Below are positions 6,293 to 61,284 of a DNA stretch of 64,000 nt, piece by piece (within the stretch, counting starts at the first letter, position 1; every line of letters begins with the position of its first letter). The notes beneath the pieces were generated by a model. That model saw only the letters and a program-made list of their open reading frames with translations. It made no database searches and was not told the origin of the DNA. The stretch comes from Buxus sempervirens (lineage: Eukaryota > Streptophyta > Magnoliopsida > Buxales > Buxaceae): NCBI GenBank assembly GCA_947561395.2, contig OX387187.1, positions 32,593,829 to 32,657,828 of the forward strand. Reading direction: 5' to 3'. A program made the position numbers and the translations under genes.

Positions 6293-6389
6293 TGTAAGCA
6301 CCTCATTTTTGCGCTCCCCGAAAAACCAAAAATGCAAACCCTAGACAGAAAGTCAAACCCTAAGGGGTGAAAAGTTGACTTTTTGATCA

Positions 6390-6950: not shown

Positions 6951-7270
6951 CGGGCAGCAAAATCGGCAATCTGCGCACGTGGCAAAAAGCTGCACACGTG
7001 GCGAGTTGCGCAGGAAAATATCTCGGGGATTAAATCCGTAAATATCCAAACATACGAAATATCCCAGGGACTAAATCCGTGAAAATCCGAGAATATCGGA
7101 TTAAATCAAAAATTGCCAGGGACTAAATCCGAATTTTTTAGATTTTTACGTCCGGCGAGCGGCGGCATTAAATGATTTTCATCATTATGCCGCTCGCGCG
7201 GACGTGGCGAGCGGGCTTGCGCCCACCTTGAGCTGGGCGCCAAGGCGGGCGCATACCCTTTTTTGTTGCC

Positions 7271-7277
7271 TATATAA
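7271..7277 (+). promoter_or_regulatory. TATA box of LTR B
   Basis: TATATAA in the context TTGCCTATATAACCCGCGC, downstream of a GC-rich inverted-repeat cluster (7148-7255). The position corresponds to the TATA boxes of the C, E and F LTRs. Confidence 0.55.
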
Positions 7278-9564: not shown

Positions 9565-9601
9565 GGCAGAAAAACAGAGGAAGAAAACAAAGTGGGTGGA
9601 A
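9565..9601 (-). pseudogene. LRK10L 5' fragment, copy 1 (right part)
   Basis: GGCAG plus AAAAACAGAGGAAGAAAAC and GTGGGTGGA match 29396-29422 directly. This is the continuation of the 6130-6292 fragment after solo LTR B. The match stops at about 9601. Confidence 0.7.
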
Positions 9602-11684: not shown

Positions 11685-14141
11685 TGTGCGCACCCCCTTT
11701 TTTCGGTTTTGGGCCGCACGACGAGGTGCATGTAGAAGTGATGCTCGCCTCGGGACTGATTTGGAGTTTGGAGTCGCCACTGCCTGAGAGGTGCAGGCAG
11801 ACACAAAAGGGGCACTTATTCGGGCCTAATGATTCTGGTCTGCGGCTTATTAGAGTTCTGAGTAAGTTCTCGGTTACGTCTAGGGAAGCCCGAAGACACC
11901 CTAGCCCGCCCCGTCGATTGACAGGTCCCGTGGGTCTCCTTGGTCTTGAGTCAACTTAGTTTTCACCCAATTACTAAGCCAGTATGCACACTTATTTGGT
12001 CTGGTGGGGACCGTTGATGGTGTGGGTCCCTTTTTTATTTGATTTTATCTTTTATTAATTAGTGAAGTGGGTCGGCTATGGGCCTGTTGGAAGGCCCGCG
12101 GGTTGCCATGGTTGGGCCTTGGGCCCAGTTGGGTTATTGGGTAACCCATTTGGTTATTTTATTATTTTATTTATTTACACTTTAGGTTTGGGCTTAGTGG
12201 GCTTGGAATGGGCCCATTAGCCAAAGTTAAGTGGCCTTGGACCCGTTTATTGAAAACGGGCCTGGTTTGGGCCAATCAAAAGTGGACCCCACAAGTGGGC
12301 CAAAGGGATCTTAATGGGCCTATCTAGGCCCAAAGTCCAAAAATGGGCTTAAGATAGCCCAAGTGGTTTAAAGGAATGGTTCAAGCCGGTTTAGGCCGGA
12401 TCAGGTCCAACCGAACCAAGAAGTTACACTTTTTACATCATTTTTACATTTGCCCGTATTTTCTTTACGGTCCAACCTGACCGTGAACTGACTACGGTCT
12501 CTTCTGTCCGTGAATCAAACACGGTCCAGGCTGGACCGGCCTGAGTTTACGGACGCAACTCATTTTGCCTGTTTGCTGCCGATTCTTCCTGGGATCAGTT
12601 CCGTGGCTTTCTCAGATGTTCTGGTAACTTCAATTGGTTTCTTCAGCTCCTCCAAATGCTTCAGTTGTTTCATTTGGCCTAAAAGGCCACTTTTCCCTTC
12701 CTTTTATTCTTCTTGAAGCAACTAGACCCTCATTTATTGTTAGTACCCAAATTCAAGAATGGAAAGGGGAGTTTACAGGGGAAGGTTTAAGGAGGACAAT
12801 CTCCTTATTGTACTTGCAAGCATCATAAACCAAAATATTAGATTCTTTAGTATTCTTTGAGTCCATCCTTTATATCATGGAATATTGCTCATTTGTATGG
12901 AGGATCCCATTAAAACAAAGGCAAATTGATTAGTAAGCAAGTAATAAAATAAAAAGAAATCCAAAATTACTCAAATGAAGGAATTCACATGTGTATTGAA
13001 AGAAATGAACCATTAAGATTATTACCACACTATTACTCCTAGACTTGTCGATGTCTGGATTCTCCGAGAAATCTGGCAGCGCTTCCGCGTCCTCCTTGTT
13101 TTGTGGGGAAGAATTGGGAAGAGTTTTCTTAGGGTGGATGGGTTTAAGATCAAATTGAAGGAGATTTGGGCATGGTTTTGGGGTAGTTTAGGAGTATAGG
13201 GGTAATTTAGGGATAAAAAGAGTTTAGGTTTTGGGATGGTGGTGGTTGGGCAGGGCTTGGCCGTGGAAAGCTCCAAGAGGGAGAGGGGGTAGGCCAGGGG
13301 AGAGGGCTTGTTCAAATGAGGGGGGTGGCCTCCCTATTTATAGGCAAAATTTTCGTGCCCGTACTTGAAGTACGGGCATGCCTTGCCCGTACTTTAAGTA
13401 CGGGCGTGCCTTGCCCGTAATTCAAATACGGGCGAAAAACGAATATTTGCAATTATCGCAGATTCTTCCGTACGGGACGCGTGTCCCGCCACGCGTCCTC
13501 TTCTAGAAGCTTGCCCGTAGTTGAAGTACGGGCATGCCTCGCCCGTACTTCAAATACGGTCCAGCACGTTTTTAAAATGTTTGGATTTCAAACCTTTATT
13601 CAATTTGGTTTATTTAAAGATTTTTATCCGATTTTTTGATTATTTTATTATAAAAACGAGATTCTTTTATTAAAATATTATTAAAAAATAAAGATATTTT
13701 ATTAAATGATTATTTTATTTATTTAACTCATTTATTCTGCTTTTTGCTGCTGTTTTGCCACATGGGCAGCTTTCTTTGAAATTTCAACTGCCCATAACTT
13801 TTCCGTTCGATGTCCGATTTCAGCAAATTTGGTGTCGTTGGAATCAGCTCGGAGCACACTATCCATTGGGATTAAGTTTGGCAGCTGAATTGGGGTCGAA
13901 CAAAAAGTCAACTTTCGCTTCCCCAAAAGTTTGACCAGCTCATAACTTCCTCATCCGGACTCCGATTCTGGCAAACTCAGTTGCGTTAGAACCGTATCAA
14001 ACTGCTATTTTCAATGTGAGGAAGTTTGATGGCCAATTTTCTTTGGATCAAAAAGTCAAATTTTGGTCCCCTCAGGGTTTGACTTTTTAATTAAAATTTC
14101 ATTTTTTGCATTTTTTGGGGTGCAAAAATCAGGTGCTAACA
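11685..14141 (-). repeat. 3' LTR of element C
   Basis: On the minus strand it starts TGTTAGCACCTGATTTTTGC and ends GGGGGTGCGCACA. It includes promoter half-site pairs at 13358-13560 just upstream of the TATA box CTATAAATAG (minus strand of about 13334-13343), and a second set near 12453-12553 in the transcribed part. A GGGCC/GGCCC-rich tract lies at 12060-12360. Confidence 0.95.
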
Positions 14142-22048: not shown

Positions 22049-22819
22049 AGCTGTGCGCACCCCCTTTTTTCGGTTTTGGGCCGCACGACGAGGTGCATGT
22101 AGAAGTGATGCTCGCCTCGGGACTGATTTGGAGTTTGGAGTCGCCACTGCCTGAGAGGTGCAGGCAGACACAAAAGGGGCACTTATTCGGGCCTAATGAT
22201 TCTGGTCTGCGGCTTATTAGAGTTCTGAGTAAGTTCTCGGTTACGTCTAGGGAAGCCCGAAGACACCCTAGCCCGCCCCGTCGATTGACAGGTCCCGTGG
22301 GTCTCCTTGGTCTTGAGTCAACTTAGTTTTCACCCAATTACTAAGCCAGTATGCACACTTATTTGGTCTGGTGGGGACCGTTGATGGTGTGGGTCCCTTT
22401 TTTATTTGATTTTATCTTTTATTAATTAGTGAAGTGGGTCGGCTATGGGCCTGTTGGAAGGCCCGCGGGTTGCCATGGTTGGGCCTTGGGCCCAGTTGGG
22501 TTATTGGGTAACCCATTTGGTTATTTTATTATTTTATTTATTTACACTTTAGGTTTGGGCTTAGTGGGCTTGGAATGGGCCCATTAGCCAAAGTTAAGTG
22601 GCCTTGGACCCGTTTATTGAAAACGGGCCTGGTTTGGGCCAATCAAAAGTGGACCCCACAAGTGGGCCAAAGGGATCTTAATGGGCCTATCTAGGCCCAA
22701 AGTCCAAAAATGGGCTTAAGATAGCCCAAGTGGTTTAAAGGAATGGTTCAAGCCGGTTTAGGCCGGATCAGGTCCAACCGAACCAAGAAGTTACACTTTT
22801 TACATCATTTTTACATTTG

Positions 22820-22920
22820 CCCGTATTTTCTTTACGGTCCAACCTGACCGTGAACTGACTACGGTCTCTTCTGTCCGTGAATCAAACACGGTCCAGGCTG
22901 GACCGGCCTGAGTTTACGGA
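22820..22920 (-). promoter_or_regulatory. Leader array of half-site pairs in element C
   Basis: Sites start at 22820 (CCCGT...ACGGT), 22847 (ACCGT...ACGGT), 22874 (TCCGT...ACGGT) and 22902 (ACCGG...ACGGA). All have 9-bp spacers and lie 27-28 bp apart. They are in the transcribed part of the LTR, about 800 bp downstream of the TATA box. Confidence 0.75.
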
Positions 22921-23700
22921 CGCAACTCATTTTGCCTGTTTGCTGCCGATTCTTCCTGGGATCAGTTCCGTGGCTTTCTCAGATGTTCTGGTAACTTCAA
23001 TTGGTTTCTTCAGCTCCTCCAAATGCTTCAGTTGTTTCATTTGGCCTAAAAGGCCACTTTTCCCTTCCTTTTATTCTTCTTGAAGCAACTAGACCCTCAT
23101 TTATTGTTAGTACCCAAATTCAAGAATGGAAAGGGGAGTTTACAGGGGAAGGTTTAAGGAGGACAATCTCCTTATTGTACTTGCAAGCATCATAAACCAA
23201 AATATTAGATTCTTTAGTATTCTTTGAGTCCATCCTTTATATCATGGAATATTGCTCATTTGTATGGAGGATCCCATTAAAACAAAGGCAAATTGATTAG
23301 TAAGCAAGTAATAAAATAAAAAGAAATCCAAAATTACTCAAATGAAGGAATTCACATGTGTATTGAAAGAAATGAACCATTAAGATTATTACCACACTAT
23401 TACTCCTAGACTTGTCGATGTCTGGATTCTCCGAGAAATCTGGCAGCGCTTCCGCGTCCTCCTTGTTTTGTGGGGAAGAATTGGGAAGAGTTTTCTTAGG
23501 TTGGATGGGTTTAAGATCAAATTGAAGGAGATTTGGGCATGGTTTTGGGGTAGTTTAGGAGTATAGGGGTAATTTAGGGATAAAAAGAGTTTAGGTTTTG
23601 GGATGGTGGTGGTTGGGCAGGGCTTGGCCGTGGAAAGCTCCAAGAGGGAGAGGGGGTAGGCCAGGGGAAAGGGCTTGTTCAAATGAAGGGGGTGGCCTCC

Positions 23701-23710
23701 CTATTTATAG
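23701..23710 (-). promoter_or_regulatory. TATA box of the C 5' LTR
   Basis: CTATAAATAG on the minus strand, 14 bp downstream of the first of five CCCGT-N9-ACGGR inverted pairs. Confidence 0.7.
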
Positions 23711-23724
23711 GCAAAATTTTCGTG

Positions 23725-23927
23725 CCCGTACTTGAAGTACGGGCATGCCTTGCCCGTACTTTAAGTACGGGCGTGCCTTGCCCGTAATTCAAATACGGGC
23801 GAAAAACGAATATTTGCAATTATCGCAGATTCTTCCGTACGGGACGCGTGTCCCGTCACGCGTCCTCTTCTAGAAGCTTGCCCGTAGTTGAAGTACGGGC
23901 ATGCCTCGCCCGTACTTCAAATACGGT
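23725..23927 (-). promoter_or_regulatory. Promoter array of 19-bp inverted half-site pairs in element C
   Basis: Five sites of form CCCGT-N9-ACGGG/T start at 23725, 23753, 23781, 23881 and 23909; adjacent sites are 28 bp apart. Spacers include ACTTGAAGT, ACTTTAAGT and AATTCAAAT, themselves partly symmetrical. The 3' LTR carries the same set 10,367 bp to the left. The binding factor is unknown. Confidence 0.8.
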
Positions 23928-24508
23928 CCAGCACGTTTTTAAAATGTTTGGATTTCAAACCTTTATTCAATTTGGTTTATTTAAAGATTTTTATCCGATT
24001 TTTTGATTATTTTATTATAAAAACGAGATTCTTTTATTAAAATATTATTAAAAAATAAAGATATTTTATTAAATGATTATTTTATTTATTTAACTCATTT
24101 ATTCTGCTTTTTGCTGCTGTTTTGCCACATGGGCAGCTTTCTTTGAAATTTCAACTGCCCATAACTTTTCCGTTCGATGTCCGATTTCAGCAAATTTGGT
24201 GTCGTTGGAATCAGCTCGGAGCACACTATCCATTGGGATTAAGTTTGGCAGCTGAATTGGGGTCGAACAAAAAGTCAACTTTCGCTTCCCCAAAAGTTTG
24301 ATCAGCTCATAACTTCCTCATCCGGACTCCGATTCTGGCAAACTCAGTTGCATTAGAACCGTGTCAAACTGCTCTTTTCAATGAGAGGAAGTTTGATGGC
24401 CAATTTTCTTTGGATCAAAAAGTCAAATTTTGGTCCCCTCAGGGTTTGACTTTTTAATTAAAATTTCATTTTTTGCATTTTTTGGGGTGCAAAAATCAGG
24501 TGCTAACA

Positions 24509-26392: not shown

Positions 26393-29300
26393 CTATGATC
26401 TTGGAGGAGATGACATAGAGGCAGAAATTTGGTTACAAAAGGGATTAGGAGGCATCACCAAACTTCCACTGTTTCCTTCCAGCATCTCTACTACCTTACT
26501 CATCGAGGGTCGATTTATCGGATCTGTCTGTATACACCATAGACCAACTAAGATCATCTTTCTTGCTACCTCTTCCTTGATGATCTCTGCAAATCCTTCT
26601 AATCTTTCATGTCCTTGTTCTTCAAGCTTCTTGTAAATCCAATGTGGAAAATATATTTCACTAGTATTCTCTACCCTTACATCAATGTTCTTTCTTCCCC
26701 CAACCATTTCTAGCAGCATCATTCCATAGCTATAAACATCTGACTTATAAGAAATTGGTCCAAAGTTTCTGCAGCATACTTCAGGAGCAATATAGCCTGT
26801 AGTCCCCCTTGCACCTGCCACAGATACTATACTTTCTCTTGTTAAATATAATTTAGCCATCCCAAAGTCCGAGATTTTGGGACAAAAATTTTCATCCAAG
26901 AGAATGTTGTGAGGTTTTATATCAAAGTGAAGTATGCGGGTATTACAGCCACGGTGCAAGTATTCAAGTCCTCTAGCAATGCCAACTGCAATTTGGTGAA
27001 GTTTCTCCCATCCCAAAGGATGTGCTACACTTGCTTTTCTATCATAGATGAACTTTTCAAGTGATCCATTTGCCATGAATTCATAGATAAGAGCCCGTTT
27101 CGATCCCTCAAAACAGAACCCAAAAAGACTAACAATGTTGAGATGATTTGTCCTACTAATGGTGGCAACCTCATTGATGAATTCTTCCCCAGTACCTTTG
27201 GACTCATTCAACACCTTAACAGCAACTGGGCATCCATCAAAAAGCTTCCCCTTGAACACACTTCCAAAACCTCCTTGGCCTAATTTTTCCTTAAATGAGT
27301 TGGTCATTTTCTTCAAATCAGAATACTTGTATCTTCTTGGAGCCTGGGATTCATAGCTCTCAAAAAATAATTCCACATTTTGATCACTCTCCTTCTTACC
27401 GTTGAAATGCAGTTTATCCCGGCAAATACCAATAAGAATTAATACTCCAAACACAACTGCAGCCATTACATATGATACTATACCTGCAAGCATGTGGAAT
27501 TATTGAACCAAAAAATCATAATTTAGCAGAATTATAAGATTATGATTATTCTACAAGAAATCCCTGGAATTGTTTCAGAAACAAACCTTTCAAGGCCTTT
27601 GAACCATTGGAGCCTACAATGAAACGAAAACAAAAGCATGTCATTAATCATCTTTTTTTTTTTTCTTTAAAAAGAAGTGAAAAATTAGCAACCAAATTCA
27701 CTACAACAGATAAAAGCAAAGTAATCTTACAAAGGATAAAAGTTCAAATTTTATAGGAAGTTAATGAAGAAAATTAGCACAGAAGTACCATAACATGGAG
27801 TAGGTTTTGCAGAGGTGGACTGGCGATGAATCTAATTAACCATTAGTATTTTTGTACAAACTTTTACACCCTAATTTGGACAAATTTTCACAGTGGGAAC
27901 CTGAAGTTTGTACCATCATAACAAGAGATGTTCTCTAAACATACAAAAAAATCTAAAATTCTTTGGTTGCATGTTGTCTAAGGAATTAACTGTTTAATAG
28001 GTCAAGAAAATTCTCTTGTTATTCGAAAGGCTATTTGTCACATAAATCTTGCTTTCGTTATAATTTGTTCCACTACACAACAGAGAAAGTGGAAAGTAAA
28101 TATCAGAAAGGGAATAAAAAGAACATATTAGAAAATAATGATGTCATACAACTAAAAAGAAAATTTTTTATCCTCAAACTAACTTCCAATTTGATAAAAT
28201 AACAATAAAGCAAAAGAAAAGCCTTATGTTAGTTCTTATCTTGACAAGATTTTCAGCTCTCAAGGTGGAGCCCAGAAACTACAGCTCTAATCCAGTTATA
28301 AGTTGACCTCTATATACCTAGATCATGTAGCATGACAAGTAGAAACTACAGGTGCGGGAAGTGAAGATCCTAGTGGCTTACTCTTCAATATTTTTATCAA
28401 AAATTTAAATCTGAATCTTCCAAAATTCACAATAAAAATTTCTTGTTTGGTCCGAGAAACATCTCAGGAGCAGAAAACAGAGAGAAGGCAGAGAATCATT
28501 CTGTCTGCTCTTTATCAAAGTCCTAAGTGCGTACTTAAGATGAAAATATTGTAAGAAGATTAAAAAGATAAACATTTCATGGGAGTACGATCATTGCAGC
28601 TTTTGCCGCGGGGATGATCACAGCGAAGACACAATAACTGGTTATTATAAAATCTGCAATGGCCACTGCTTTCCTCACATTCACTGCAGTCATTTTCACT
28701 CCATTCCAAAATAATCCTTTCTTTAAAAAATCTTGGTAATTTGAATTTATTATGCTTTCCAAACTTGCATCTTCATCCACATCCATTGGCATTTCTACTG
28801 ATGATTGGCATGTCTTCTCTGAATAATTCAAGAAGCCCAAATTTCCCGCATGGACAAACCCAGCAAAATAGTAGTGACTGGAATTGCTAGCACATGGAAC
28901 TTTATAGTAATAATTCTCAGTTGGAACTTTGGAACAATTGTAGAAGAATAAGATAGAAGCATGGGAAGAGCTAAAATTAAAGGGAGTTCCATTAAGGGTG
29001 GAATTGTATTGAGGAGTGGGGCAATTGCTTTTCAAGGCTTTGGAATCAATGACCAAAAGTGAATGGTTTGAGTAAAAGATATCTCTTATGATATAATCAT
29101 CATCAGAAATCTTAAGAACAGGCTCAATATTGTCCTCACAAGTCACTCTAAAGTTTGGATGTCCACAGTAGGATTCTTGTTCATGAGGGATCCAGAAAGG
29201 ATAGCTTATGTTTGGGTCATTACTGCAGTTTCGTGGTGCACAAGCTTCAAACTTCTGATCAGCCCATGCAGATTTTTCCACCAAGATGGAAAGGAAGATG

Positions 29301-30350
29301 ATATTGATCAATGCAGAAGAGAGTTTTCTGAAGAATTTGAACATGAACACGCTGTGATTAGCCATCTATAAAGGGAGAATTTGGAAGATGACAGAAGAAC
29401 AGAGGAAGAAAACAGAGTGGGTGGAAATGGAAGGGGTGAACTTTTATATGTTTAATATATTCTTCAACATTCTTCGATTAACTTTCCTTTGTACAGAATG
29501 TAATAAAATCCTCCTCCATTAGTCAAAAACATGTAAGTAAGTAGCCGACCTAAAGCTGCTACTGAAATTAGAAATTATAGACCATATGAACAAAACATGA
29601 CTTACCATTGCATTCCCACTCATATAATATATCCCCATCTGGAGACTTGCAGGCACAGTCCATATGATCAGGGAAATCTGAGTAGCAACACAACCCACCG
29701 GACCTCTCACACTGCCGGCACTGCATGTCAATGATGCCGAAATTCATGTTGAACCCATCCTGCAGGGCGTTCCAGTAATTGCTATTATTCAGTTTCTCAA
29801 ATGATGTACTTCTGATGGGATATGTCACAACTGAGGCACATGCTCGGCCGATATCATCAGAAGCATTATTAATGGTGAAAGTCCAGTAAGAGCGGCTTTC
29901 ACCCGGACAAAGAATCTGGTGTGTGTAAGAAGGCAAAAACGAAGAGCAGTTATAGAAGAATCTAAGGAAGGAAGAATCTGTGGTGTAGTAGTCTGCTGCA
30001 CCAATGCTCTCGCGATCGAAGCCGTGACGGGGTAAATGGCATAGAGTGTCTTCGTAAACTTCCATGGCTATGAGGGTGATGCTTCTTTCAGAATAATCGA
30101 TGTTCTTCACAAAGTATTTGTTGCCAGAGCTGCTGGTAAAAGTAACCTTTTTGCCCTCACACGAAAGGCCAAGACCCCCGTATCCACAGTATTGGTAACC
30201 GTTAGTTCGACTTCGATCCCAGACAGGATAACTAACGTTGAGACCATTTTGACAATCCATGACAGGAAGGGACGAGTTGGTTGAATTCACAGGACTGGCA
30301 TGATGATTGATAACAAGGAAGATGAAGAGGAGGAGATGGTGGGAAGACAT
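26393..30350 (-). CDS. LRK10L-type receptor-like kinase (three-exon model, 620 residues)
   Basis: Proposed exons are 30350-29606, 27613-27587 and 27483-26393. The first donor is GTAAGT, phases are 1 and 1, and the total is 1863 nt. Exon 1 starts at ATG 30350 with a hydrophobic signal peptide, then a GUB_WAK-type Cys-rich domain (YPVWDRSR, YCGYGGLGLSC) and a WAK-associated C-terminal domain (CRQCERSGGLCCY). Exon 3 begins with the membrane segment. The kinase has GQGGFGSV, the catalytic-loop motif HFDIKPHNILLD (non-RD) and DFGMAKLY, through GLWCIQTDPINRPSM to a short Ser/Pro tail. All catalytic residues are present. The product is a plasma-membrane Ser/Thr kinase with a wall-facing ectodomain; LRK10L members act in pathogen and stress signalling, ligand unknown. 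The model skips a decayed ectodomain exon (28589-29365). Confidence 0.82.
28589..29365 (-). pseudogene. Second LRK10L ectodomain exon, frameshifted, inside intron 1 of the kinase gene
   Basis: ATG 29365 opens a signal peptide, a GUB_WAK-like domain (YPFWIPHEQESYCGHPNF) and a WAK-associated domain with many N-glycosylation sites. After LFWNGVK the frame loses the Cys-rich end. Another frame supplies DCSECEESSGHC and a following LRCDHPRGKSC, as the family requires. The break is at the A-run opposite 28693-28696. Exon length to the donor at 28588 is 777 nt, which would put the kinase out of frame; one extra base would restore phase 1. It is therefore most likely a one-base deletion in a tandem-duplicated first exon. 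Its 5' end is the source of the fragments at 6130 and 36381. Confidence 0.78.
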
Positions 30351-31484
30351 TGAGGAATCCTGGTCTAGTGTTTTTTTTTTTGGTTTTTTGAGGAATCCTG
30401 GTCTAACCTCCAACATCTGATAAGCCATGTATTTACGATGAACTGATCCTTGCTCCATAGTCCAAGTCAACAAAGGCAAGCGCTTGATTAGATATATTCC
30501 ATGGTTCTTTCTTGACGAAAAATTTTTGTGTATTCTCTCTTGCTCTTTTAGTGTTTGATATATTGTTGTATTATTTATTGCTTTGTTTTTATCTATTTAT
30601 TTTGGCTTAGTCAATTTCACATAAGTATTTGGGGCCCAACAAAAAGCCCTTGGGAAGTTCTTAAACCAAAAAATTAAATTGGTGAATGTTTAAATCCCTA
30701 GGTTGTTGCGTACGAACTGTGAAAAAATAGAAATGTAAGTGACTCTGGCGTCGTTTAGTATGGATTCTACCAAAACACAAGGTTCACTAAGTTGTTTGAT
30801 AATGTTTTTGAAAATTGGATTTTAAAATTAAATGTTAAAATTTGCTCAAAAATTACAATCCACTTTTTTATGAGTTTTTATAGATTTTGATTATTAACAA
30901 TGGTAGGTCCCACTTGAATACAAGTAATAAAGAACTATTAATGATGGTAGGACTCATTTAAACAATGTGCTAAAATCAAAAGTATCCAAAAAAGATTTTA
31001 GATTCTAACAATCAACATTGAAAATCTTGACTTTCAAAATCTAAATTATAATCCAAAAGCCATTCAAAACGGCCCCTTATATATTGGAAAAGTTTAAAAT
31101 AAATGACTCAAAAAAATAAAAACGTAGTTAAGTCAAAGCATCGCACCTAAATTTATGACGATTTTGATTTATGGTTTTTGTAGCTCAAGCAGATGGTTGT
31201 TACCTTTTTCTTTAATATTTTTTCCCCCTTCACTCTAATCTCTCTTTTTCTGTTTCTCTCATCTCTAATTTTTCTTTTTCTGTTTCTCTCATCCTAATCC
31301 AGAGATAAACAAAGGTCTCTTCTCTCAGCCCCTTTGTTTCTCTTCTCCATCGATCCCATATACCTTTAAGTTTAATCCTAAGTTTGCAAGCAGTTCAGTA
31401 TTTTTGCCTAGTACAATGTTTAATCCAATTTGATAGTCTGATCAAACTTTCGTTTTAATTTTTCTTCTCTTTTATGATCATGGC
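30351..31484. other. LRK10L upstream region and unassigned AT-rich sequence
   Basis: The 5' flank of the receptor kinase gene. No TATA box at a typical distance is convincing. The rest is AT-rich with no recognisable ORF. Confidence 0.45.
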
Positions 31485-44454: not shown

Positions 44455-44882
44455 ACAATTCATATTTGTTCAAGCTTCGCAGATCCGTGCAGGTATCAAT
44501 TTTGAGGATTATGCCAGTGTTGTTTTTTTGTTGCTTCTCGTCTTTTACTTTGTGGTCCTGTATATAACCTTTGTTGTTCAAGGGAGAGGAAACTATCAGT
44601 TTGTGGATATTAGGTGGCTCTGTAGCGGTGGGTGAGTTTGTATGAATGTGATTGTTGATAAAAAATGACGTTTAATTGTTAATACAGGGAGCAGTTGAAT
44701 GTTAGAAAGAAATGACATATTGCAAAGAAATATTTATTTTTTGGTTCTCAATGGATCATGTTTTGTTTCATAGGTTTTTCAATATTCTACTCTTTTGCAT
44801 TTTCCAAGCCAATATGATCTACTTCTCACACACACACTGCAGAGAAATTTTTTTGAGTTTTGGATGCGTCTTGTTAGCATGG
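44455..44882. other. Unassigned sequence
   Basis: AT-rich, no recognised gene; leads directly into the palindromic repeat array. Confidence 0.4.
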
Positions 44883-46410
44883 AATACAACCCTGTTAGCA
44901 ACGGATACAAACCAAGGCAGCATTGGGGTACAACACCACTGTATGCACATAGGTACAATCCAAGTCAACATGGGGTACAATCCTCTTAGAAATGGGTACA
45001 ACCCAAGTCAGCATAAGGTACAACACCGCTAACAAACGTGGGTACAACCCAAGGTAGCATGGGGTACAACCCTTTTAGCAATGGGTACAACCTAAGTCAG
45101 CATAGGATACAACACCACTAACAAATGTGGGTACAACCCAAGGTAGCATGGGGTACAACCCTTTTAGCAATGGGTACAACCTAAGTCAGCATAGGATACA
45201 ACACCGCTAACAAACGTGGGTACAATCCAAGGTAGCATGGGGTACAACCCCCTTAACAACGAGTACAACCCAAGTCAGCATAGGGTACAACACCACTAGC
45301 AAACGTGGGTACAACCCAAGGTAGCATGGGGTACAACCCCCTTAACAACGGGTACAACCAAAGTCAATATAAGGTACAACACTGCTAACAAATGTGGGTA
45401 CAACCCAAAGTAGCATGGGGTACAACCCCCTTAACAACGGGTACAACCCAAGTCAGCATAGGGTACAACATCGCTAACAAACGTGGATACAACCCAAGGT
45501 AGCATGGGGTACAACCCCCTTAACAACGGGTACAACCCAAGTCAGCATTAGGGTACAACACCATTAACAAATATGGGTACAACCCAAGGTAGCATGGGGT
45601 ACAACCCTCTTAGCAACGGGTACAATCCAAGTCAGCATTAGGGTACAACACCGCTAACAAACGTGGGTACAATCCAAGGTAGCATGAGATACAACCCTCT
45701 TAGCAACAGATACAATCCAAGGTATCATGGGGTACAAAACCACTAACGAACATAGGTACAACCCATGTCAGCATGGGATACAACCCTCTTAGCAACGGGT
45801 ACAACCCCATGCTGACTTGGGTTGTACCCACGTTTGTTAGCGGTGTTGTATCACATGCTGACTTGGGTTGTACCCATTGCTAAGAGGGTTGTACCCTATG
45901 CTACCTTGGGTTGTACCCACGTTTGTTAGCGGTGTTTATCCTATGTTGACTTGGGTTGTACCCGTTGCTAAGAGGGTTGTACCCCATGCTACCTTGGGTT
46001 GTACCCACGTTTGTTAGCAGTGTTGTACCCTAATGCTGACTTGGGTTGTACCCATTGTTAAAGGGGTTGTACCCCATGCTACCTTGGGTTGTACCCACGT
46101 TTGTTAGCGGTGTTGTACCCTATGCTGACTTGGGTTGTACCAGTTGTTAAGGGGGTTGTACCCCATGCTACCTTGGGTTGTACCCACGTTTGCTAGTGGT
46201 GTTGTACCCTATGCTGACTTGGGTCGTACCCGTTGTTAAGGGGGTTGTACCTCATGTTGACTTGGATTGTACCCATGTCCATATAGTGGTGTTGTACCCC
46301 AATGCTGCCTTGGTTTGTACCCATTGCTATGGGGGTTGTACCCATGTTTATCAGCGGTGTTGTACCCCAATGCTGCCTTAGTTTGTACCCATTGCTACAA
46401 TTTCAATATA
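44883..46410. repeat. Long palindrome of 22-bp GGGTACAACC-type tandem repeats
   Basis: From 44883 to about 45805 repeats read GGGTACAACCCAAG..., organised as an 89-bp unit of four subunits (21, 22, 22 and 24 bp). From about 45806 to 46410 the same array runs in reverse complement (CTTGGGTTGTACCC). The variant outermost unit (AAACCAAGGCAGCATTGGGG, then a diverged CACCACT..ATG..CAT part) is present at both outer ends, so the two arms are true inverted copies. The left arm is about 920 bp and the right about 600 bp. A transcript would fold into a long hairpin. Confidence 0.92.
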
Positions 46411-47301: not shown

Positions 47302-49115
47302 TGTAGACACCCCAAATTGCACTACCGGGTGAGAAAATAATAAAAACATGTAATTAGAGCTTAAAACAGGTCAAAAATGCATAAAAATTGACAAAGCAGA
47401 CTTTGCCCGTATTGCATTCACGGACCGGTTGCGCCCGAGATCACTCTACGGTCAGGCGCGCCCGTATTGAAATTACGGTCACCGTTGGACCGTAAATGAT
47501 TTACGGTCACTAAAGACTCGTGCGAGTTTTATTCTTCTCTCGATTTCCGAGCTTTATCTTGAGTCCAATATATCTTTAAATGAGCGAATTACGTATTTTA
47601 TTCGCTGAAGCCACCTTGGTTGGCTATGGATGGGCCTTATCTCTGTATTTCACTCTATCTTAAGGACCAGGATATATCCTTCTGGACCAACCATGCCCCT
47701 GTGCTTGCCTATAAATAGAGGTGAGATTCTCAAGCAAAAGGCCACGAAATTTTGAAGAATCAAGAGCTCCAAGAGAAGAAGACGAACCCCTGCTGCTTTG
47801 CTTGCTCAATCCAGGTAAGTCCCTTTTCCCTTTTATTTTCTGTCTTCAATTCTAGAAATAATAGGATCATCTCTATTGCTGTAGAATAAGGCCATATTTT
47901 GTATCTAGTATTCCTAAACTTGTCTCCAAGTACCTCAAGAGTCTCTCTAGCCGTAAAACGTGAAGAGAGAGCTAGGGGAAAAGAGAACAGGTGGATCTCT
48001 AGAATAGAACCCCATATCTGTTTTTCTCTTTTTCTAGAATAAGGCCTTTGATTGTGCTTGTATAACCAAACCTATCTCCAAGTACCTCAAGAATCCTCTC
48101 TAGTCGTAAAACGTGAAGAGAGAGCTAGGGGAAAAGAGAACAGGTGGATCCGTAGGGTAGACCCCCATGTGCTCTAATCTGTGAGATGTGGTTGCTTTGA
48201 ATATCCTGATCATGTTTTAATTGTTTTTATGATGAATCTGAATGAATCTATGATGTTCATGATGTTGATAGCATCAGATCCCCACTTTTTGATAAAATTT
48301 GGATTTTCCACATATTTGCACCTACAGCACTGTTTTCGTGATTTTTGTGATTTTAGGCTAAGATCCTGGATTTATCATGATCAATATGGTAGATCTGAAT
48401 CCAGAAGCCTAAAAATAAATTCTAGGGTTTCATGATGTGGTTTTTGAGTTGTTTTTCATTATTAAGAGAAGACCCTACGGTCTAAGTTCTCCCCTTTTTA
48501 TGTTTGTCATCAACGTGGGTATTTTTTGTTTTGATTTTCAGATTTAATGTGAAATTTGGGCTTTACCTATGTCCTGGACTATTCAAGTTCAATTTTGAAA
48601 TATTTTATAAAAATCATATTTTTCTAGATTTCTAGAATTTGACTTGAAGCCAGATTTTTAGATTTTTCACTTTAAATTGATTTTATTTGATTTTATCTTA
48701 ATTTTATTTTGATCAGGAAACCCTAGGAATGGTATGATCATATTTGAGAGTTCTGGATCAATCAGACTATTCATATGAAAAAACCATATATTTTTGTCTT
48801 TTTATGTGATTTTTCATGTTTTTTATAGCAAGCTTTTTTCCTTTAATTTAACATGAACAATACCTGGCAACCACCTTGTGTGGATGAATAGGGGTGCCTA
48901 ACACCTTCCCCTGTTCATAACCTAATCCCCCTACCTATCTCTGGTTGTTTTTTAGGAGGGTTATTTTTACCCTAAAAATTGCCTTTTGTGCTTATTTAAT
49001 ATTTTGGTGTCCATTCACACCTAAATTGAATGGTGGCGACTCTTTGTTTGATTTAATCCCGTGTAATGATTGAGGAAGTCAAAAAGGAATTTTTGATTTT
49101 TTCCCATGTCTCACA
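47302..49115 (+). repeat. 5' LTR of element F (1814 bp)
   Basis: It begins TGTAGACACCCCAAATTGC and ends CATGTCTCACA. A TATA box CTATAAATAGAGG lies at 47710-47722. Four half-site pairs are at 47406-47507. U5 contains a PBS-like TGGCGACTCT (49034-49043). Two near-copies of a block ending AGAGAGCTAGGGGAAAAGAG occur at 47925-47990 and 48080-48145. Confidence 0.8.
47406..47507 (+). promoter_or_regulatory. Promoter array of half-site pairs in element F
   Basis: Sites start at 47406 (CCCGT...ACGGA), 47434 (CCCGA...ACGGT), 47461 (CCCGT...ACGGT) and 47489 (ACCGT...ACGGT). All have 9-bp spacers and are 27-28 bp apart. They lie about 200 bp upstream of the TATA box. Confidence 0.78.
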
Positions 49116-50336: not shown

Positions 50337-50467
50337 ACCGTGTTTAATACACGGGCTGGGCTTGTCCGTATTAGTGATATGGGCGGCGCTCGCCCGTGAA
50401 TTTCATACGGTCACGGCTCGCTCGTAATTTGAATACGGGCAGAGCTGGACCGTACTATATATACGGT
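50337..50467 (+). promoter_or_regulatory. Leader array of half-site pairs in element F, exact 28-bp phasing
   Basis: Five sites start at 50337, 50365, 50393, 50421 and 50449: ACCGT...ACGGG, TCCGT...ATGGG, CCCGT...ACGGT, CTCGT...ACGGG and ACCGT...ACGGT. Every spacer is 9 bp and every interval exactly 28 bp. Confidence 0.82.
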
Positions 50468-51118: not shown

Positions 51119-51820
51119 CGTGTAAGCACCTCATTTTTGCGCTCCCAAAAAACCAGAGATGCAAAAACCTGGCCGAAAAGTCAACCCGAAGGGGTGAAAA
51201 GTTGACATTTTAATCAGATAAAATTGGGCCACCTTGATCTATCCCATTGGATAAAGAATCCCGACACGGTTCCAGCGCAACTGGGTTTGTAGGAATCGGA
51301 GTCCGAATGAAGGTTCTACGGGCGGTCAAACTTAAGGAAAAGCCAAGAGTTGACTTTTCCTCGATTTCCGTGCCAAATACCTTACTTTAGCCCAATGGAT
51401 AGAGAATCCCGACATGGTTCCAGCGCAACTGGGTTCGCAGGAATCAGAGTCCGGATGAAGGTTCTAAGCGCAGTCAAACTTAAGGGAAAACCTAAAGTTG
51501 ACTTTTTCTCGGAATCCGTGCCAAGTGGTTAGCCCCATGTCATTAAATAGAGGGCTCCGATACGAGTTTAACACAATTGAGTTTGCTCGAATCGGAGTTC
51601 GGATAAGGGAGATATGATCTTTCGAAGTTCCCAAGCAGCAAAGCCGGAAACTACACACGTGGCGCAGGAACTGCACACGTAGCAGCCAACGCAGCAAAAT
51701 ATCTCAGGGACTAAATCTTAAATATAAAAATTTCGTACGGGCGATCCGTAGATATCAAAAAGGGTCAAATCGGTCGAATCGGTCAAGTCGAAGGGCAAAT
51801 CCGTAATTTTTCGATTTGTA

Positions 51821-52060
51821 TCCGGACACATATACCGGATACACTGCCTATCCTTCATGGCCGGACTTGAAGACCGGATACATCAAGATATTCGCGCGAG
51901 ATCCGCGTCGATCGCCCGACAAATTTGCGGCGGCATTTAATTTTCGAATGATTATGTCTTGTATCCGGACTTGAAGACCGGATACAAAGGGAAGCTAGTC
52001 TATCCGGACTTCAAGTCCGGATACGAAGAGGCCTTAGTGTGTCCGGCCTGAGTTGCCGGA
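51821..52060 (+). promoter_or_regulatory. Promoter array of TCCGG-N9-CCGGA pairs in element E
   Basis: Sites start at 51821, 51860 (GCCGG arm), 51964, 52003 and 52042. All have 9-bp spacers (for example ACTTGAAGA, ACTTCAAGT); neighbouring sites are exactly 39 bp apart except for one gap of 104 bp. The site at 52003 is a perfect palindrome through its spacer. The last site ends 14 bp before the TATA box. Confidence 0.82.
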
Positions 52061-52074
52061 TACATTAAAATTTC

Positions 52075-52080
52075 TATAAA
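52075..52080 (+). promoter_or_regulatory. TATA box of LTR E
   Basis: TTCTATAAATAGC context, directly downstream of the promoter array. Confidence 0.7.
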
Positions 52081-53096
52081 TAGCAAACCAGCAGCTCATT
52101 TCCGGGGTTGGGCTTTTCTTGGCTGTTCTGAGCTTCCTCCTCCACTTTTCTCCCACACGAATCTCCACCTCTTCAACCCCTTTTGGCCCCCATACCAGCC
52201 CAAGCCCTTCCTCTCTTCTCCTTCTCCTCTCTATCCCTACTGAAAGAAGAAGGATTGGAGTTGCTGTTGGTGCTCCAAGGAGGTCTCCAGGTGCTGTACC
52301 ACCCCCAAGGCATACCACCATCTTGCACAAGAGGTCAAGGACCTCAGGTAAGACTCCTCTCCATGTTAGATTCGACATATATTAAAACTGTATTTTTCTG
52401 CAAATATTCTTGTGTGGTTTCTCTTTTTTCGCATGAGGACACGTTCCTACCATGCTAAGTATGTATTTTTCATCATTTGCATGGCATGAGGGTTACTACA
52501 CGTAAGAAACCCACGTGGGTTCCTCTAGGAAGGCATGGTGGTCCATCTATCACCCGCTCTTTAGTCCCTTTGTGTTGCTGTTTTTTTTTGTTTTTGTTTT
52601 GCTCCAAGCATGTTTAAAAAGGGAGCATGTTCCCTCTCCTCTTGCCATCTAATGTATCCCCATATGTAACCCCCTCGCTATTCCTTTCTTCGTCTCTTCA
52701 AGTGAAATGCATGTGTATAGCTAGTGGGGTTTTGCTGTGAATAACATGCTGCATGTGTTAGCATAGGTTTCCTCTTGTCTTTGCATGAAGGTAGTTTGCC
52801 TTGGACCCAAGCATGTGGGGACCAACCCTCCCTGGAAGCAGATTTTCCCTTCATCATTAAGACCATGTGTGTCCTATTTTCATTACTATCTTGTGTAAGC
52901 ATGATCCCCTTTCCCCTTGTTTTACATTCCCTTGCTCTTGCTAAAAGACCCAAGGAGAGAAGCCAAGTGTGGCTTCTCCCAAGACTGAACCTACGTGGGC
53001 CCTCACAGGGGCCCACAAGGCCTTCAAAACCCTCCTGGTAACCCCTGGAATCAATCCCAAAAGGCCAAAACCCCAAAAAGGCCAATTCCAGAGTGA

Positions 53097-53193
53097 TCCG
53101 GATACTCAGGCCGGATCACCTTTGGCCTCTGTGTATCCGGATACACTGGCCGGATCACCTTTGACCTCTGTGTATCCGGATACACTGGCCGGA
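53097..53193 (+). promoter_or_regulatory. Leader array of TCCGG-N9-CCGGA pairs in element E
   Basis: Sites start at 53097, 53136 and 53175 with 9-bp spacers (ATACTCAGG, ATACACTGG, ATACACTGG) and exact 39-bp spacing, the same spacing as in the promoter array. Confidence 0.82.
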
Positions 53194-54245
53194 TGCACAC
53201 AGAAGCTTGATTTTTTGCATATTGTTGATCCCCGGCCGAATTTTTGGCTAATTTGTACTAAAACCAATGAACCAACAGGGTTTCCGGGCCACCCGGAAAC
53301 CCAAGATGGGACTTGGACCAACCGGTCCGACTCGGCACACTTGTGGGCCTTCCAACGGGGCCCACCAAGCCCAATGAACCAAAGCCTGCTAATTGAACAA
53401 ATTAAGTGAAATGAACGAATTGAACCGGGCGGGCCAAGCCCAATGCGGCCCACCCGTGCCTCGTGATGTGAACGAATGCATGATCTGTGGTTTGGCCGAG
53501 ACCATGGGCTAGGGCCTGTCGGGCCCACTAAAGCCCACCAACCGAACCGAGTTATGGTGCAAGCCCTAAACCCCGAGGAACTGGGCTTTCAAAGCCCGAG
53601 GCCTGGATCATGGGCCCCAAGCCCAATGACCAAGCCCACTTTGGTAAAAATTGAATAAAGATAAATTAGACTTGCTTGTTCACCATGTGGGCCCACCTAA
53701 GGGGCCCACCAACCGATCCGGCCCACCACTTGCATGAAAAACACCTAAGCTTCAACTTAAACCTTAATAAAAATAAACTCACTAACCAAAGCCCACAGGG
53801 CCTCCTAGGCTTAGACAGAGGCCCACATGGGCACATCGGCTTACCCAAGCCCACCAAGGGCACCACGGGCCTTCCAACGGGGCCCGCTCAATCAGACTCA
53901 AATAATTTAAATAAAACCAAGATAAAATCAACTAAAGGGACCCACACCACTCAGGTGGTCCTGCCAAGACTCAATCTAAATTACATGCGGGATTAGGAAT
54001 CGGGTGAGAACCAAAGTGAAAAGCTGACTCAAGATAGGGAACCCACGGGACCCGTCATCCGACGGGGTGGGTTGGGGTGTCTACAGACTTCCCCAGCCCG
54101 CAACCGAGAACCGACTTAGAATCTCAAGCCGCAGACCCAAAGCCCTAAATAGACAAGATTAGGCACCCAGGTGTCCGCCTGCACCCCATCAGGCGGTGGC
54201 GACTCCGAATTCCCCCCGTGCCGCGCTTATGCCGCGCGCACAGCC

Positions 54246-54263
54246 TGGCGACTCCACTGGGGA
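54246..54263 (+). other. Primer-binding site of element E
   Basis: TGGCGACTCCACTGGGGA, three bases after the LTR end. Confidence 0.85.
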
Positions 54264-55779: not shown

Positions 55780-57213
55780 ATGGCATCTTCATCCTCATCT
55801 GAGAGAACCCGTTTCCCTAAGATAGAGAAGTGCGCCTGGGATACCCCCTGGATCCGTTCTTGGATAAGGCAGCTCCAAGGGAGTGAGCAGATTGAATGGG
55901 AGCACAAATACCACATGGGACAGACTTTGTCCCTGTTAAATGTGCCGATCAACTGAGATATGATCCAAGCAGCATTGCTTTTCTGGGATCCCCAGCTTTC
56001 AGTGTTTCGATTCGGGATCAATGAGTTGACTCCCACAATCGAGGAACTTGACCTGTTCCTCCGATTTCGTGACTTAGGAGAACCCGCTAGGCCAAGTCTC
56101 AAAGAAAGTTACAGGAATGAAGCTTGCGCTTTCCTTGGCCTCTCAAGGGGAGAATTCCAGACCTTAGGAGGTGACAAATCATTTACTCGGGTCTCCAAAA
56201 CATTCCTAGCTGAAAAGATAAGAAACAAAAAGCAGGAAAGACCCCGGGCTTGGTTTGACACCTTCACCCTTGTGGTTCTGTCACAAATCTTCTTTCCAAC
56301 TGGGGGAGACACCATTAATTTGGCCCTCATGGAAATTGTGGATCAACTCAGGGCAGGGTACCGAATCATGCCACTGATCCTAGCTCAACTGTTCCATTCC
56401 CTGACTTTGTCCAAAAACGGAACTCGGAGGTTTCAAGGGTGCGCTCCCCTTCTCCACATTTGGCTGCAAGACCACCTGACGGTGTCATCACCTGTCAGTA
56501 CATATTACAAGGCAACCGGCGACAACATCCATTGGTTGGCTCAAAGAGAGATCAAACCAGACCTACCCGCTCGTGAGGATTGGTTTAACCACTTTCTCCA
56601 CCTGAAGGGAGAAACGGACATCAGATGGTGGGGTACATACAACATCCCCTACACCCCCATCATAGCTTTCAAGAAACGAGAGGGGCTTTCCCTAATAGGA
56701 CTCACCCATGCCGTGCCGTACTATCCGATCCGAGTTCTGAGACAGTTTGGGAAACCGCAGGGAATCCCGGTCAAGGACGACTTGAGCAGTTTGATTGGTC
56801 CACTCACCAAGGGACTAAGGACCCAACTGCTGATAGAATGGAAGATGGTGTGCGTATATCGAGAGGACGTCTTCGTCGAATCGCACTTTCGAGACTATGA
56901 GCAATGGATAGCTCGGGAATTTGGCCACGACGGCCCCCCACCTCTTCAGCCTGTCGCATCAGGCGACATTCCAGTTCCGCCCCCTAACACATATAGGGAC
57001 AGGGTGGCCGAACTGCAGGAGACCCACTCCCGTATCCATTCAGCTTATGTGGATTCGGAACGGGAAAGTAGGCAGGCCAATACGGCCTTGCAACACGAAA
57101 TGGAATTGGTGCGCAAGCGCGCTGAGGAGGACCGACGTCTGCGGAACAAGCTTCTGCGAGCCTTGAGGAGGCAGGACGTGTCCTCCCACTATGATGATGA
57201 CCAACCTAGCTAG
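55780..57213 (+). pseudogene. ORF1 of element E, DUF7745-like, with an in-frame TGA
   Basis: ATG at 55780 (MASSSSSERTRFPKIEKCAW) starts a frame that meets TGA at 55954-55956 and continues without further stops to 57213, about 478 codons in all. The main part has the features of the plant DUF7745 family of transposon-associated proteins: LLFWDPQLSVFRFGINELTP near its start, a Trp-rich middle (RWWGTYNIPYTPIIAF) and a charged coiled-coil C-terminus (ELQETHSRIHSAY onward). Ogre-group elements have such an ORF before gag; its function is unknown. The TGA follows LNVPIN and precedes DMIQA; CGA to TGA at a CG site is the simplest cause. An alternative is initiation at ATG 55960. Confidence 0.75.
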
Positions 57214-58720: not shown

Positions 58721-61284
58721 TCAGGTACCAAAAATTGCTTTCAGAAGTCCGTACCTGTTAAGATCGAGGAGAAGGCTCGAAATGGACCAGCAAGGAGAGC
58801 AGACGCCGCCAAGGCAACATCCTGCAGAGTCTAGTCATGCGCAAGTAGTTAATGAGATGCAACAAAAGATGGACAGCATGGGTGCCATCATCCAGGAATT
58901 GATGACAGAGCTAAGGGAATTGAGGCAGGCCCCGCCAGGGATACCGGTCACCCAGCAGCCGCAGCCACAGTTCCCGCCACAAGCGGAAGCAGTGCCACCG
59001 CCACGTCCGGCGAATCCCCCTCCCCTGGCACCGCCACCACGTTGCACAACAGGATCAGTTTCTGCCTATCCATCTGGGGCAGGGTGACGAGGACTGGTAC
59101 AGAACCCAAGAAGTGCAGTTTGAAGAAAAGCTGACAGCGGTAAGGGAGGAGAACAGAACGGAAATGGCCGCCCTCAAGGAGCAACTCAAGCAGCTCCAAC
59201 CCAGCATAGTGCAGAGTGAGGCTACTCTGGAAAGCCTCTGTTTCTTTTCAGATATCCAACTCCCGGCTAAGTTCAAATGCCCTGAGTTGCACCAGTTCGA
59301 CGGCACCGGGTGCCCCCTGAACCATCTGAGGTCCTATTCTGGTGACATGTGCCAGTATGCCAAGGAAGAGCGGATTATGGTGCAGTTCTTCCAGAAGTCA
59401 CTAGCCGGGGCCGCTTACTCTTGGTTCCTGAGTCTAGACAAGGCTAAGATCAAAACATGGAATGACCTGGCAGCAGTCTTCATCCAGCAGTACCGCCTGA
59501 ACAGTCAGATAGTGCAGACGAGGGCAGAATTGCAGAGGCTGGCAAAGAAGAGCCAAGAGTCAGTAAGAGAATATGCCAAGCGCTGGAAGGAATTGGCAGC
59601 ATTAGTACAGCCGCCGTTGCTAGAACAAGAGATGACGTCGTTGTTTATTGCATCATTGGGCCAACCTTTCTTCACTCTGCTGCTGGGGCAGAGTACATCG
59701 AACTTCAATGACCTGATCTTGACTGCGGATTGGATTGAAGATGCAGTAAGGGCTGGAAAGATAGATGGCAGTGGGCAGAGCGCCGCACCGAGGAGGCCAG
59801 TAACAGGACTGGGTAACAGAAACCAGGGGCAAGAGCCCAGGAGGCAAGAACAGCAGGCGGTCAACTATGTACACCCTGCACAACCCCATCATTTCTCTCA
59901 AAGACCAGAGGCAGTAGCACCTCAGGGGACCGGGCAGGCAGCTTACCAAGGGGTACGAAGGACGAGAGAAGAAATGGAGGCCAGGATGAAACGGGTTTTT
60001 ACCCCACTCCCATATGCGCTGGCAGAATTGCTACCTACGTTGCTGAAGAAAGGGTACGTGCAAGTCAAGCCTCCGAATCCTCGCTTAGTCAATGCCAGGA
60101 GCTATAATGCAGCTGAGCGATGCGAGTACCACTCCGGTGCTCCGGGGCACCATACCAATCGGTGTTGGGATTTGAGGCACGACATCCAGGACCTGATTGA
60201 CAGCAAGCGCATCACAGTCGACCCGCCAGCACCACCTGCCCAGACTCCAGCAGCTGGCGTAACTACCAATCCGCTCCCAGATCACTCAAAAGCCTCCACT
60301 AGTAGAACAGCGAATCAGGTGAGCAGTGATCAGGGCACCAGGCAGTTCGACCCTTCTGCACTTATTGGCCGGCCAGGGCAGACAGTGAGGGTGCAGCTTC
60401 GAGCAGAGTCCCATTCGACGGCAATTGCACTTAAGGAGGATACAGACGTCTACATCTGTGCAATAGAGGATGAACCGCAAAGCAGTGAGGAGGTCACAGG
60501 GCCATGGAACCCAGTGCAATGCGGATGGATCAGTTACTCCCCATCCCCTCCACGCCGAGAAGGAATCGGCAGTTCCGAGGGACCCTGGTTCCGAAATGGG
60601 CCACCGGACACAGACGCGTCAGTAGACAGTTCAAGGGTACCCCCACAGATGTCTACCGGATGGCCACCTGAGTATATGTCTGCGACTTCAGAGCCGGACC
60701 TGCAATCCCTCTCCGATCCCCTATCAGCAGAGCCAACTTCAGAATCCTCTTCCCACGGCACGTCGGAGTGGTTCGTCCCCCCTTATGCCACGGAAGAGGA
60801 GGAACCACCATCCACTCCTGAACTTGCAACCCTGCTTGATCCATATGAGAGTTCAGACGAGTCCCCTGATACGGACTCAGAAGACACATCGGTAGATGAA
60901 AGCAGGGCAGTGAACGTTATCGAAGGAGATGGCAGTGACTTCCCTACTAATCTCCCTCTGGTGCATTTCCACCCACACACAGACCAAGAGTTTTTCTACC
61001 CCACCCCTTTCCCCAACCCCTCCGCCATCAACATCCATGACATCATGGACTCACCTCCACAAGACCCTTTCTCCCTTTCATTTGAACCACCCACCCTCAA
61101 CCTTTCACAACTCAACCTGGAACCACCCTCGTACAACAGGGTATCCCCACCTTACCCCACTACATCTTTCCACCTTCAAGCCACCTCCGCAACCACCATT
61201 GAAGCAGAAATCGACCGAATCACCCGATCTGGTCGATACGTAAACACCGATCCCCCACCCGCACCAGAGGGAGAGGAAGCATAA
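58721..61284 (+). pseudogene. gag: gag of element E, one frameshift near 59035
   Basis: Similarity to C gag starts after an AG at 58723 with IAFRSPYLLRSRRRL, upstream of the first ATG (MDQQGEQ). This suggests translation from a spliced mRNA. The frame shifts near 59035 in a Pro-rich tract (LAPPP); the neighbouring frame then supplies DEDWYRTQE, as in C. The gag core has IMVQFFQKSLAGAAYSWF and REYAKRWKEL, the zinc-knuckle-like CEYHSGAPGHHTNRCWDLR, and an acidic Ser-rich tail. It would assemble particles and bind RNA. It stops at TAA 61282-61284, but the same frame goes on into protease. Confidence 0.85.

Follow-up and report, generated by a model that had tools for sequence, protein, structure and literature searches.

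The LTR of a retrotransposon in the 64-kb window analysed here (the whole stretch of DNA, C9:32593829-32657828) contains rows of short palindromes, and the question raised by this locus is what holds them at such exact distances and what might read them. An initial annotation had listed eight sites of the form TCCGG-N9-CCGGA, five before a TATA box and three in the leader, and had offered three explanations for them, i.e., an operator array bound by a dimeric DNA-binding protein, a chromatin signal or paired RNA hairpins. All eight sites are in place (Table 1): seven are exact, and the eighth, at 51860, has the single changed arm (GCCGG) that had been reported. The 9-bp spacer holds in every one of them. 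When one mismatch is allowed the window contains 11 matches, the eight sites and three more, where 0.83 are expected by chance and 100 shuffles gave at most 3. The proposed 39-bp phasing applies to five of the six within-cluster intervals but not to the step from 51860 to 51964, which is 104 bp, and the five-base half-site proves too short, as the real arm is about GTATCCGG/CCGGATAC. The full site is thus approximately GTATCCGG-N9-CCGGATAC, and the frame common to all sites is a CCG-N11-CGG core. Because the second cluster lies downstream of the TATA box it is read as transcribed, a prediction that follows from its position.

The sites belong to element E, an Ogre/Tat-like LTR retrotransposon. 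It has a pair of LTRs, the 3' LTR lying downstream of the window (C9:32666062-32669133; L035, L036), with 98.8% identity over the larger of two aligned pieces and 93.8% over the smaller, as well as a presumed primer-binding site and an extra open reading frame (ORF) for a plant mobile domain (PMD) protein upstream of gag; most of its pol lies beyond the window. ORF1 in the window is N-terminally shorter than close copies, and intact copies of 477 aa exist. The five promoter sites and their intervals are identical in both LTRs of E, and the spacer of site 5, CCTGAGTTG, is also unchanged in the six alignable copies of the E family (12 fetched). Leader sites number three in the 5' LTR and two in the 3' LTR; a 39-bp unit has therefore been added or removed since the element inserted. 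The leader repeats, 2.5 copies of 39 bp, match one another at 95%, which, together with this difference between the LTRs, suggests that the regularity of the leader is in part the product of recent 39-bp duplication or loss in this copy; repeats of the promoter cluster are more diverged (77% matches). Among 12 stretches fetched by their PMD gene, six align at the E promoter and those carry the array, the stretches without alignment being L075, L076, L079, L080, L082 and L085. A genome-wide query with the E PMD produced 8,167 initial candidates; the 100 of them that were scored are all at least 94% identical, mostly with an open frame, and suggest recent amplification of this gene.

Table 1. 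Arrays, promoter elements and coding regions of element E and of related elements such as C (window coordinates) and of family F (locus coordinates or relative position)
Feature	Position	Strand	Basis or remark
Site 1, TCCGG acacatata CCGGA	51821..51839	+	Sequence
Site 2, GCCGG acttgaaga CCGGA, one arm changed	51860..51878	+	Sequence
Site 3, TCCGG acttgaaga CCGGA	51964..51982	+	Sequence
Site 4, TCCGG acttcaagt CCGGA	52003..52021	+	Sequence
Site 5, TATA-proximal unit, spacer CCTGAGTTG	52042..52060	+	Sequence
TATA box CTATAAATAG, 13 bp past site 5	52074..52083	+	Sequence
Leader site 1, symmetric 9-bp arms GTGATCCGG/CCGGATCAC	53097..53115	+	Sequence
Leader site 2	53136..53154	+	Sequence
Leader site 3, spacer identical to leader site 2	53175..53193	+	Sequence
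5' LTR of element E, starting TGTAAGCACC	51120..54242	+	Match to downstream LTR
Primer-binding-site-like sequence (presumed) TGGCGACTCCACTGGGGA	54246..54263	+	
ORF1, PMD/DUF7745 protein	55960..57213	+	Pfam PF10536 (5e-18), PF24924 (7e-18)
gag ORF of element E	59113..61284	+	Pfam PF03732
Sister array CCCGTA-N7-TACGGG, period 28, LTR of element C	13358..13560	-	
Sister array, other LTR of element C, beside CCTATAAATAG	23725..23927	-	
Further sister-class arrays in the window	50337-50467, 47406-47507		
Family F arrays	Four units in LTR, four in 5' untranslated part		
Family F array, four units	Before first PMD gene, between pol and 3' LTR	Opposite strand	
Family F array, two units with TATA-like box	~1.3 kb before second antisense PMD gene		
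Two antisense PMD-coding genes of family F	L009 992-1981, 3799-4773	-	Sequence

Spacing and constraint across the genome

Sites of the TCCGG class also occur outside element E. In the window's own 676.5-Mb genome, TCCGG-N9-CCGGA is found at 33,347 places, compared to 658 for the reversed control, while the same arms occur 593 times with spacers of 6-8 bp pooled (control 920) and 1,033 times with spacers of 10-12 bp pooled (control 3,038). Other spacers are therefore far from being equally common, the first of two observations that the initial annotation had named as fatal to its proposal. The linker that sets the 39-bp period, CCGGA-N20-TCCGG, occurs 21,306 times (control 652) and linkers of 16-19 bp pooled 1,180 times (control 3,505), in a count that covered lengths of 16-20 bp. 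Neighbouring exact CCGG-N9-CCGG sites no more than 130 bp apart show the same period, with 144 of 162 pairs 39 bp apart in the examined DNA, much of which was chosen for carrying such sites; the other steps are 38 bp (3 pairs), 47 (1), 77 (1), 78 (5), 104 (7) and 105 (1). Outside this genome, a search of viral_contigs gave 0 matches. The genome_contigs search returned at least 119 stretches, of which all 80 listed are prokaryotic, with no 39-bp site pair among the positions listed, and these matches are read as chance.

The same array class is carried by a second family, F (L005-L013), whose LTR of ~2.25 kb matches the E LTR at the arrays only (E value 1e-5 or better). Pairwise diversity among 23 distinct F LTR promoters is 0.008 in the left arms and 0.021 in the right arms, compared to 0.214 in the spacers and 0.186 in the linkers; the value for the downstream flank, 0.006, is biased downwards, flank similarity having been the criterion by which 17 of the 23 copies were selected. 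These 23 were kept from 33 copies, with six coming from the site listing and 17 from the flank-similarity search, for which 20 of 40 listed were fetched. The ten dropped copies have a lost or merged unit (L038, L051) or a 38-bp step (L006, L007), fell at the flank cut-off (L010, L014, L020, L024), or are duplicates (L019, L046). At the promoters of the antisense PMD genes of F, diversity is 0.031-0.034 in the arms, 0.093-0.100 in the spacers, 0.119-0.125 in the linkers and 0.031-0.040 in the TATA flank, with four of the five loci chosen by coding sequence entering the count (L089, which has an 8-bp distal spacer, is left out). Arms and linkers follow one another at intervals of a few bases, too short for differences in regional mutation rate to account for this gap.

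The excess of N9 and N20, and arms that are 3-27 times less variable than the letters between them, agree with the earlier view that arms and geometry are constrained and spacer letters are free. That view stands for the constraint itself, though not for the whole of the regularity on which it drew, given the partly recent duplication in the leader cluster and the one interval that departs from 39 bp. An unconstrained satellite should have arms as variable as its linkers, and we find 0.008-0.034 in arms and 0.119-0.186 in linkers. The second observation named as fatal, a 39-bp satellite duplication with no arm conservation, is thus not what is seen, and we reject the pure satellite reading on the difference between arm and linker diversity.

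Promoter placement in two site classes

At several promoters the arrays stand at a set distance from the TATA box. In E-type LTR promoters it lies 14-15 bp past the last CGG. At the first antisense PMD gene of F, the last unit is 13 bp from the TATA motif GCTATAAATGC in all ten loci examined, five of which were chosen by coding sequence alone (of 40 listed) and five located via the TATA motif itself. The five coding-anchored loci all have the array, with the TATA box 13 bp past the last CCGGA in each, and one of their 20 units, the distal unit of L089, has a spacer of 8 bp. Before the second antisense PMD gene, to which the two-unit array presumably belongs, the TATA box lies at ~12 bp in three of five arrays and none is found in two (L018, L023). 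Many arrays are differently placed: a TATA-like box lies within 40 bp of only 18 of 143 oriented array ends, the arrays in F LTRs are ~160 bp away from their own TATA box, and those in leaders and 5' untranslated parts are without one. Two further PMD coding regions lie on the minus strand of the window, at 3207-4508 and about 135-896; the 800 bp inspected on the upstream side of the former contain no phased array.

A sister class with other letters, CCGTA-N7-TACGG, occurs at 28,303 places genome-wide (control 1,785) and is carried by related LTRs, including those of elements C and D of the window and, elsewhere, of L031 and L057-L061. It has a period of 28 bp and the same CCG-N11-CGG frame as the TCCGG class. 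All 30 exact sites in the examined DNA have a spacer of 7 bp, and none has any other length from 3 to 15. Here the TATA box is found 15 bp past the last CGG in four of five loci, the last unit being changed in the fifth (L060). The better preserved copies of the two classes share one layout, i.e., two sites, a gap, three sites, a TATA box and a leader array, with a gap of 104-105 bp in E and 100-111 bp in the sister class and a leader array ~1.05 kb past the TATA box in E and 0.83-0.94 kb past it in the sister class. In the sister-class element L031/L028 the internal part is colinear with E, and its PMD is 79% identical to that of E. No phase emerged when the B-type LTR (6292-9565) was examined for a further class of palindrome; this LTR has GC-rich inverted repeats near its TATA box with unequal spacers (8, 9 and 11 bp). 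The two LTRs of element C (11685-14141 and 22052-24508) are 99.6% identical, so that its insertion is probably recent, and gag is its sole internal ORF of at least 200 aa listed.

The chromatin option can be weighed at this point. The arrays would then act on chromatin or DNA methylation, perhaps as an insulator or as methylation-sensitive sites, and not as a promoter operator. Their arms contain CG and CCG contexts, many arrays are far from TATA boxes, and CpG is retained in the promoter cluster of E (observed/expected 1.48) but scarce in the following 1 kb (0.21). However, the ratio is 0.69 in the leader cluster and 0.68 over the entire LTR, close to the 0.62 of the window, so that CpG retention marks the promoter cluster only, and such a signal on its own leaves the exact dimer spacing and the TATA distance unexplained. 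We consider this reading rather improbable.

Folding and turnover of the arrays

If the sites acted as RNA, hairpins in the transcript could serve packaging, translation or RNA processing. The arrays have strong predicted folding (in silico z-scores of -5.7, -9.8 and -8.4), symmetric arm variants exist (TAACCGG/CCGGTTA, TAGCCGG/CCGGCTA and GTGATCCGG/CCGGATCAC), and, among 12 pairs in 129 unique units, covariation at pairs 4/22 and 9/17 exceeds all 5,000 shuffles and at pair 2/24 all but 26 of them. Folding of this kind is, however, expected of any palindrome. The commonest symmetric variant, ACCGG-N9-CCGGT, occurs 1,254 times genome-wide compared to 766 for its control, and 40 of the 50 places listed share one spacer, CCTGAGTTG or CCTGAGTTA; the variant is thus mostly one unit type, which implies few events, and we do not count the 4/22 covariation, which looked strong locally, as good evidence. 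The inner seven spacer positions (pairs 10/16 to 12/14) show no covariation among the same 129 units, and the predicted minimum-energy folds pair neighbouring units with one another. A stem, moreover, needs neither a loop of exactly 9 nor an invariant CCGG, and an Rfam search found no family. The hairpin option of the initial annotation fits less well than the operator option, and we regard a role as RNA as quite improbable.

The units of an array do turn over. The spacer of unit 1 in F is ATACTCAAT in 14 of 23 copies, and 7 have it flipped to the precise reverse complement, ATTGAGTAT; both orientations occur among copies with near-identical flanks (L008 1342-1478 and loci L037-L056), and we infer that the flips may reflect hairpin-mediated inversion. 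Two copies (L038, L051) have lost or merged units. Likeness and register among units also come from tandem duplication and from exchange between arrays, which counts against reading the arrays as operators. It could accordingly be argued that the arrays have no function and are a 39-bp satellite that arose in an ancestral LTR, spread, and was kept uniform through slippage, template switching and gene conversion, in which palindromes persist since hairpins correct their own arms. Hairpin-mediated inversion predicts flips such as those in F, and this reading also fits the unit loss and merging, the 95% likeness within the leader cluster and the one-unit difference between the E LTRs. Homogenisation would, however, hardly keep the arms while spacers and linkers vary 3-27 times more, and CpG-bearing arms are expected to decay fast in methylated DNA. 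Furthermore, the loci tested have a constant TATA distance, the second class retains the frame with other letters, and the five loci chosen regardless of arrays (four in the diversity count) argue against it. Taken as a whole, including self-correcting hairpins, we find it very improbable.

A proposed dimeric reader and its candidates

Of the three options first offered, operators for a dimeric protein explain the arrays best. Exact spacer and period, free letters between, palindromic arms and a fixed TATA distance point to rows of dimers beside a promoter, and in our judgement, drawn from sequence comparison, the arrays are probably dimer-binding operators, whatever the binder. We propose that a dimeric regulator contacts the two half-sites, with each monomer reading ~8 bp, and that several dimers in a row (units are often four in a row at the 39-bp period) would sit beside the transcription machinery and regulate the promoters of the element itself. 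Its most plausible identity would be the element-encoded PMD/DUF7745 protein, and the sister class may represent a conserved dimer with altered base preference that keeps the frame and the TATA distance. Considered as one explanation, dimer operator arrays with PMD as the likeliest regulator, this proposal appears likely. The geometry has an analogue in Gal4-type sites, CGG-N11-CCG, in which inverted CG-rich triplets 11 bp apart are read by a dimer of a protein family that is fungal; the present triplets face the opposite way (CCG-N11-CGG), and the analogy is one of geometry only.

PMD is the first candidate because E and F share the site class and both carry PMD/DUF7745 genes, because the first PMD gene of F has an array at its own promoter, and because the low dN/dS of the E PMD, 0.139 over 45 pairs (from 10 open copies of 12 fetched), indicates purifying selection. 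The E and F proteins are 37.5% identical over 168 residues. Counting against PMD as reader is the E PMD itself, as it is 79% identical in a sister-class element with different sites. No protein relatives were found in the PDB, and none among 3,795 candidates in the protein set. We hold binding of the arrays by the element PMD/DUF7745 protein as a tentative assignment.

The alternative for the binder overlaps the operator reading. The arrays could be operators for a borrowed host transcription factor, with the PMD gene unrelated, a serious rival that we rate as possible but short of even. Several arrays are TATA-proximal, an ordinary placement for host-driven LTR enhancers, and PMD is tied to the sites by co-occurrence only. 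A precedent comes from tobacco Tnt1, a copia element. According to the accessible part of the source, its BII boxes bind defence-induced host factors (PMC3316501), and Tnt1 resembles the present case in having repeated cis elements in a plant LTR retrotransposon promoter, those of Tnt1 being bound by proteins; that part of the text describes no 9-bp spacer or 39-bp phase (PMC3316501). On the other hand, two half-site classes within one architecture fit a co-diversifying element-specific factor better than a single unchanging host factor, and the arrays also precede antisense PMD genes.

Host PMD proteins offer a second comparison. As the available portions of two reports state, genes with the DOWN motif depend on MAIN, MAIL1 and PP7L for their expression, and direct recognition of DOWN by them is there a hypothesis only (PMC7156037, PMC9899485). 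The likeness is that PMD proteins are linked to promoters sharing a DNA motif; DOWN (CATGCAGTTT in the MORC1 promoter) differs from the present site, and the readers there are host PMD proteins. For Ogre/Tat elements of the Ty3/gypsy group, the consulted sections of PMC6317226 give lengths of up to ~24 kb, large LTRs and extra ORFs, with PMD in 57% of Ogre elements and the function of the extra ORFs questioned, and they make no mention of phased palindromes.

VANC/VANDAL is the closest precedent, with arrays of transposon-specific motifs bound by the transposon's own protein. VANC proteins bind tandem short motifs in the non-coding parts of VANDALs in Arabidopsis, as the accessible text reports (PMC5735166), and, as here, the motifs lie in non-coding element parts and differ between related families. 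The present elements likewise have tandem motifs in two classes (33,347 and 28,303 places) with promoter and leader arrays. They differ from VANDALs, which are Mutator-like DNA transposons, in being LTR retrotransposons with gag and PMD genes and in encoding another protein family. The VANC21 motif is nine bases long and "palindrom-" and "dimer" are absent from the text (PMC5735166); the present arrays are palindromes with a fixed spacer and period, unlike that motif as described in the part available (PMC5735166). By analogy with VANC on VANDAL, PMD would recognise copies of its own element and activate or un-silence them.

Extended to Ogre/Tat elements in general, the proposal would be one of self-recognition: a PMD dimer binds phased arrays in the CCG-N11-CGG frame and un-silences or activates its own family, with half-site letters splitting the families. 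Its targets would be the sense LTR promoter and the promoters of antisense PMD genes, and family specificities would diverge through the half-site letters (TATCCGG vs CCGTA) with frame and TATA distance constant. In this general form we deem it unlikely; if true, it would give the extra PMD ORFs a role and provide an LTR-retrotransposon counterpart of VANC. If PMD does read the arrays, sequence-specific anti-silencing would reach beyond Mutator-like DNA transposons into LTR retrotransposons; should the reader be a host factor, its site and geometry are still named exactly. In either case, one plant genome contains tens of thousands of phased dimer-type sites in two related classes, and the sites examined lie within Ogre/Tat-like elements; several stand immediately in front of a promoter. 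No description of such an array was recognised among the papers listed in the literature searches, judged on titles and abstract openings, and no mention of DUF7745 was found in the literature searched.

Two other features of the window were observed. A large inverted repeat at 44875-46400 consists of 89-bp tandem units containing GGGTACAACCC. On the minus strand at 26393-30479, ORFs with kinase and wall-associated-kinase galacturonan-binding domains are found, and this region is probably a host WAK-like receptor gene.
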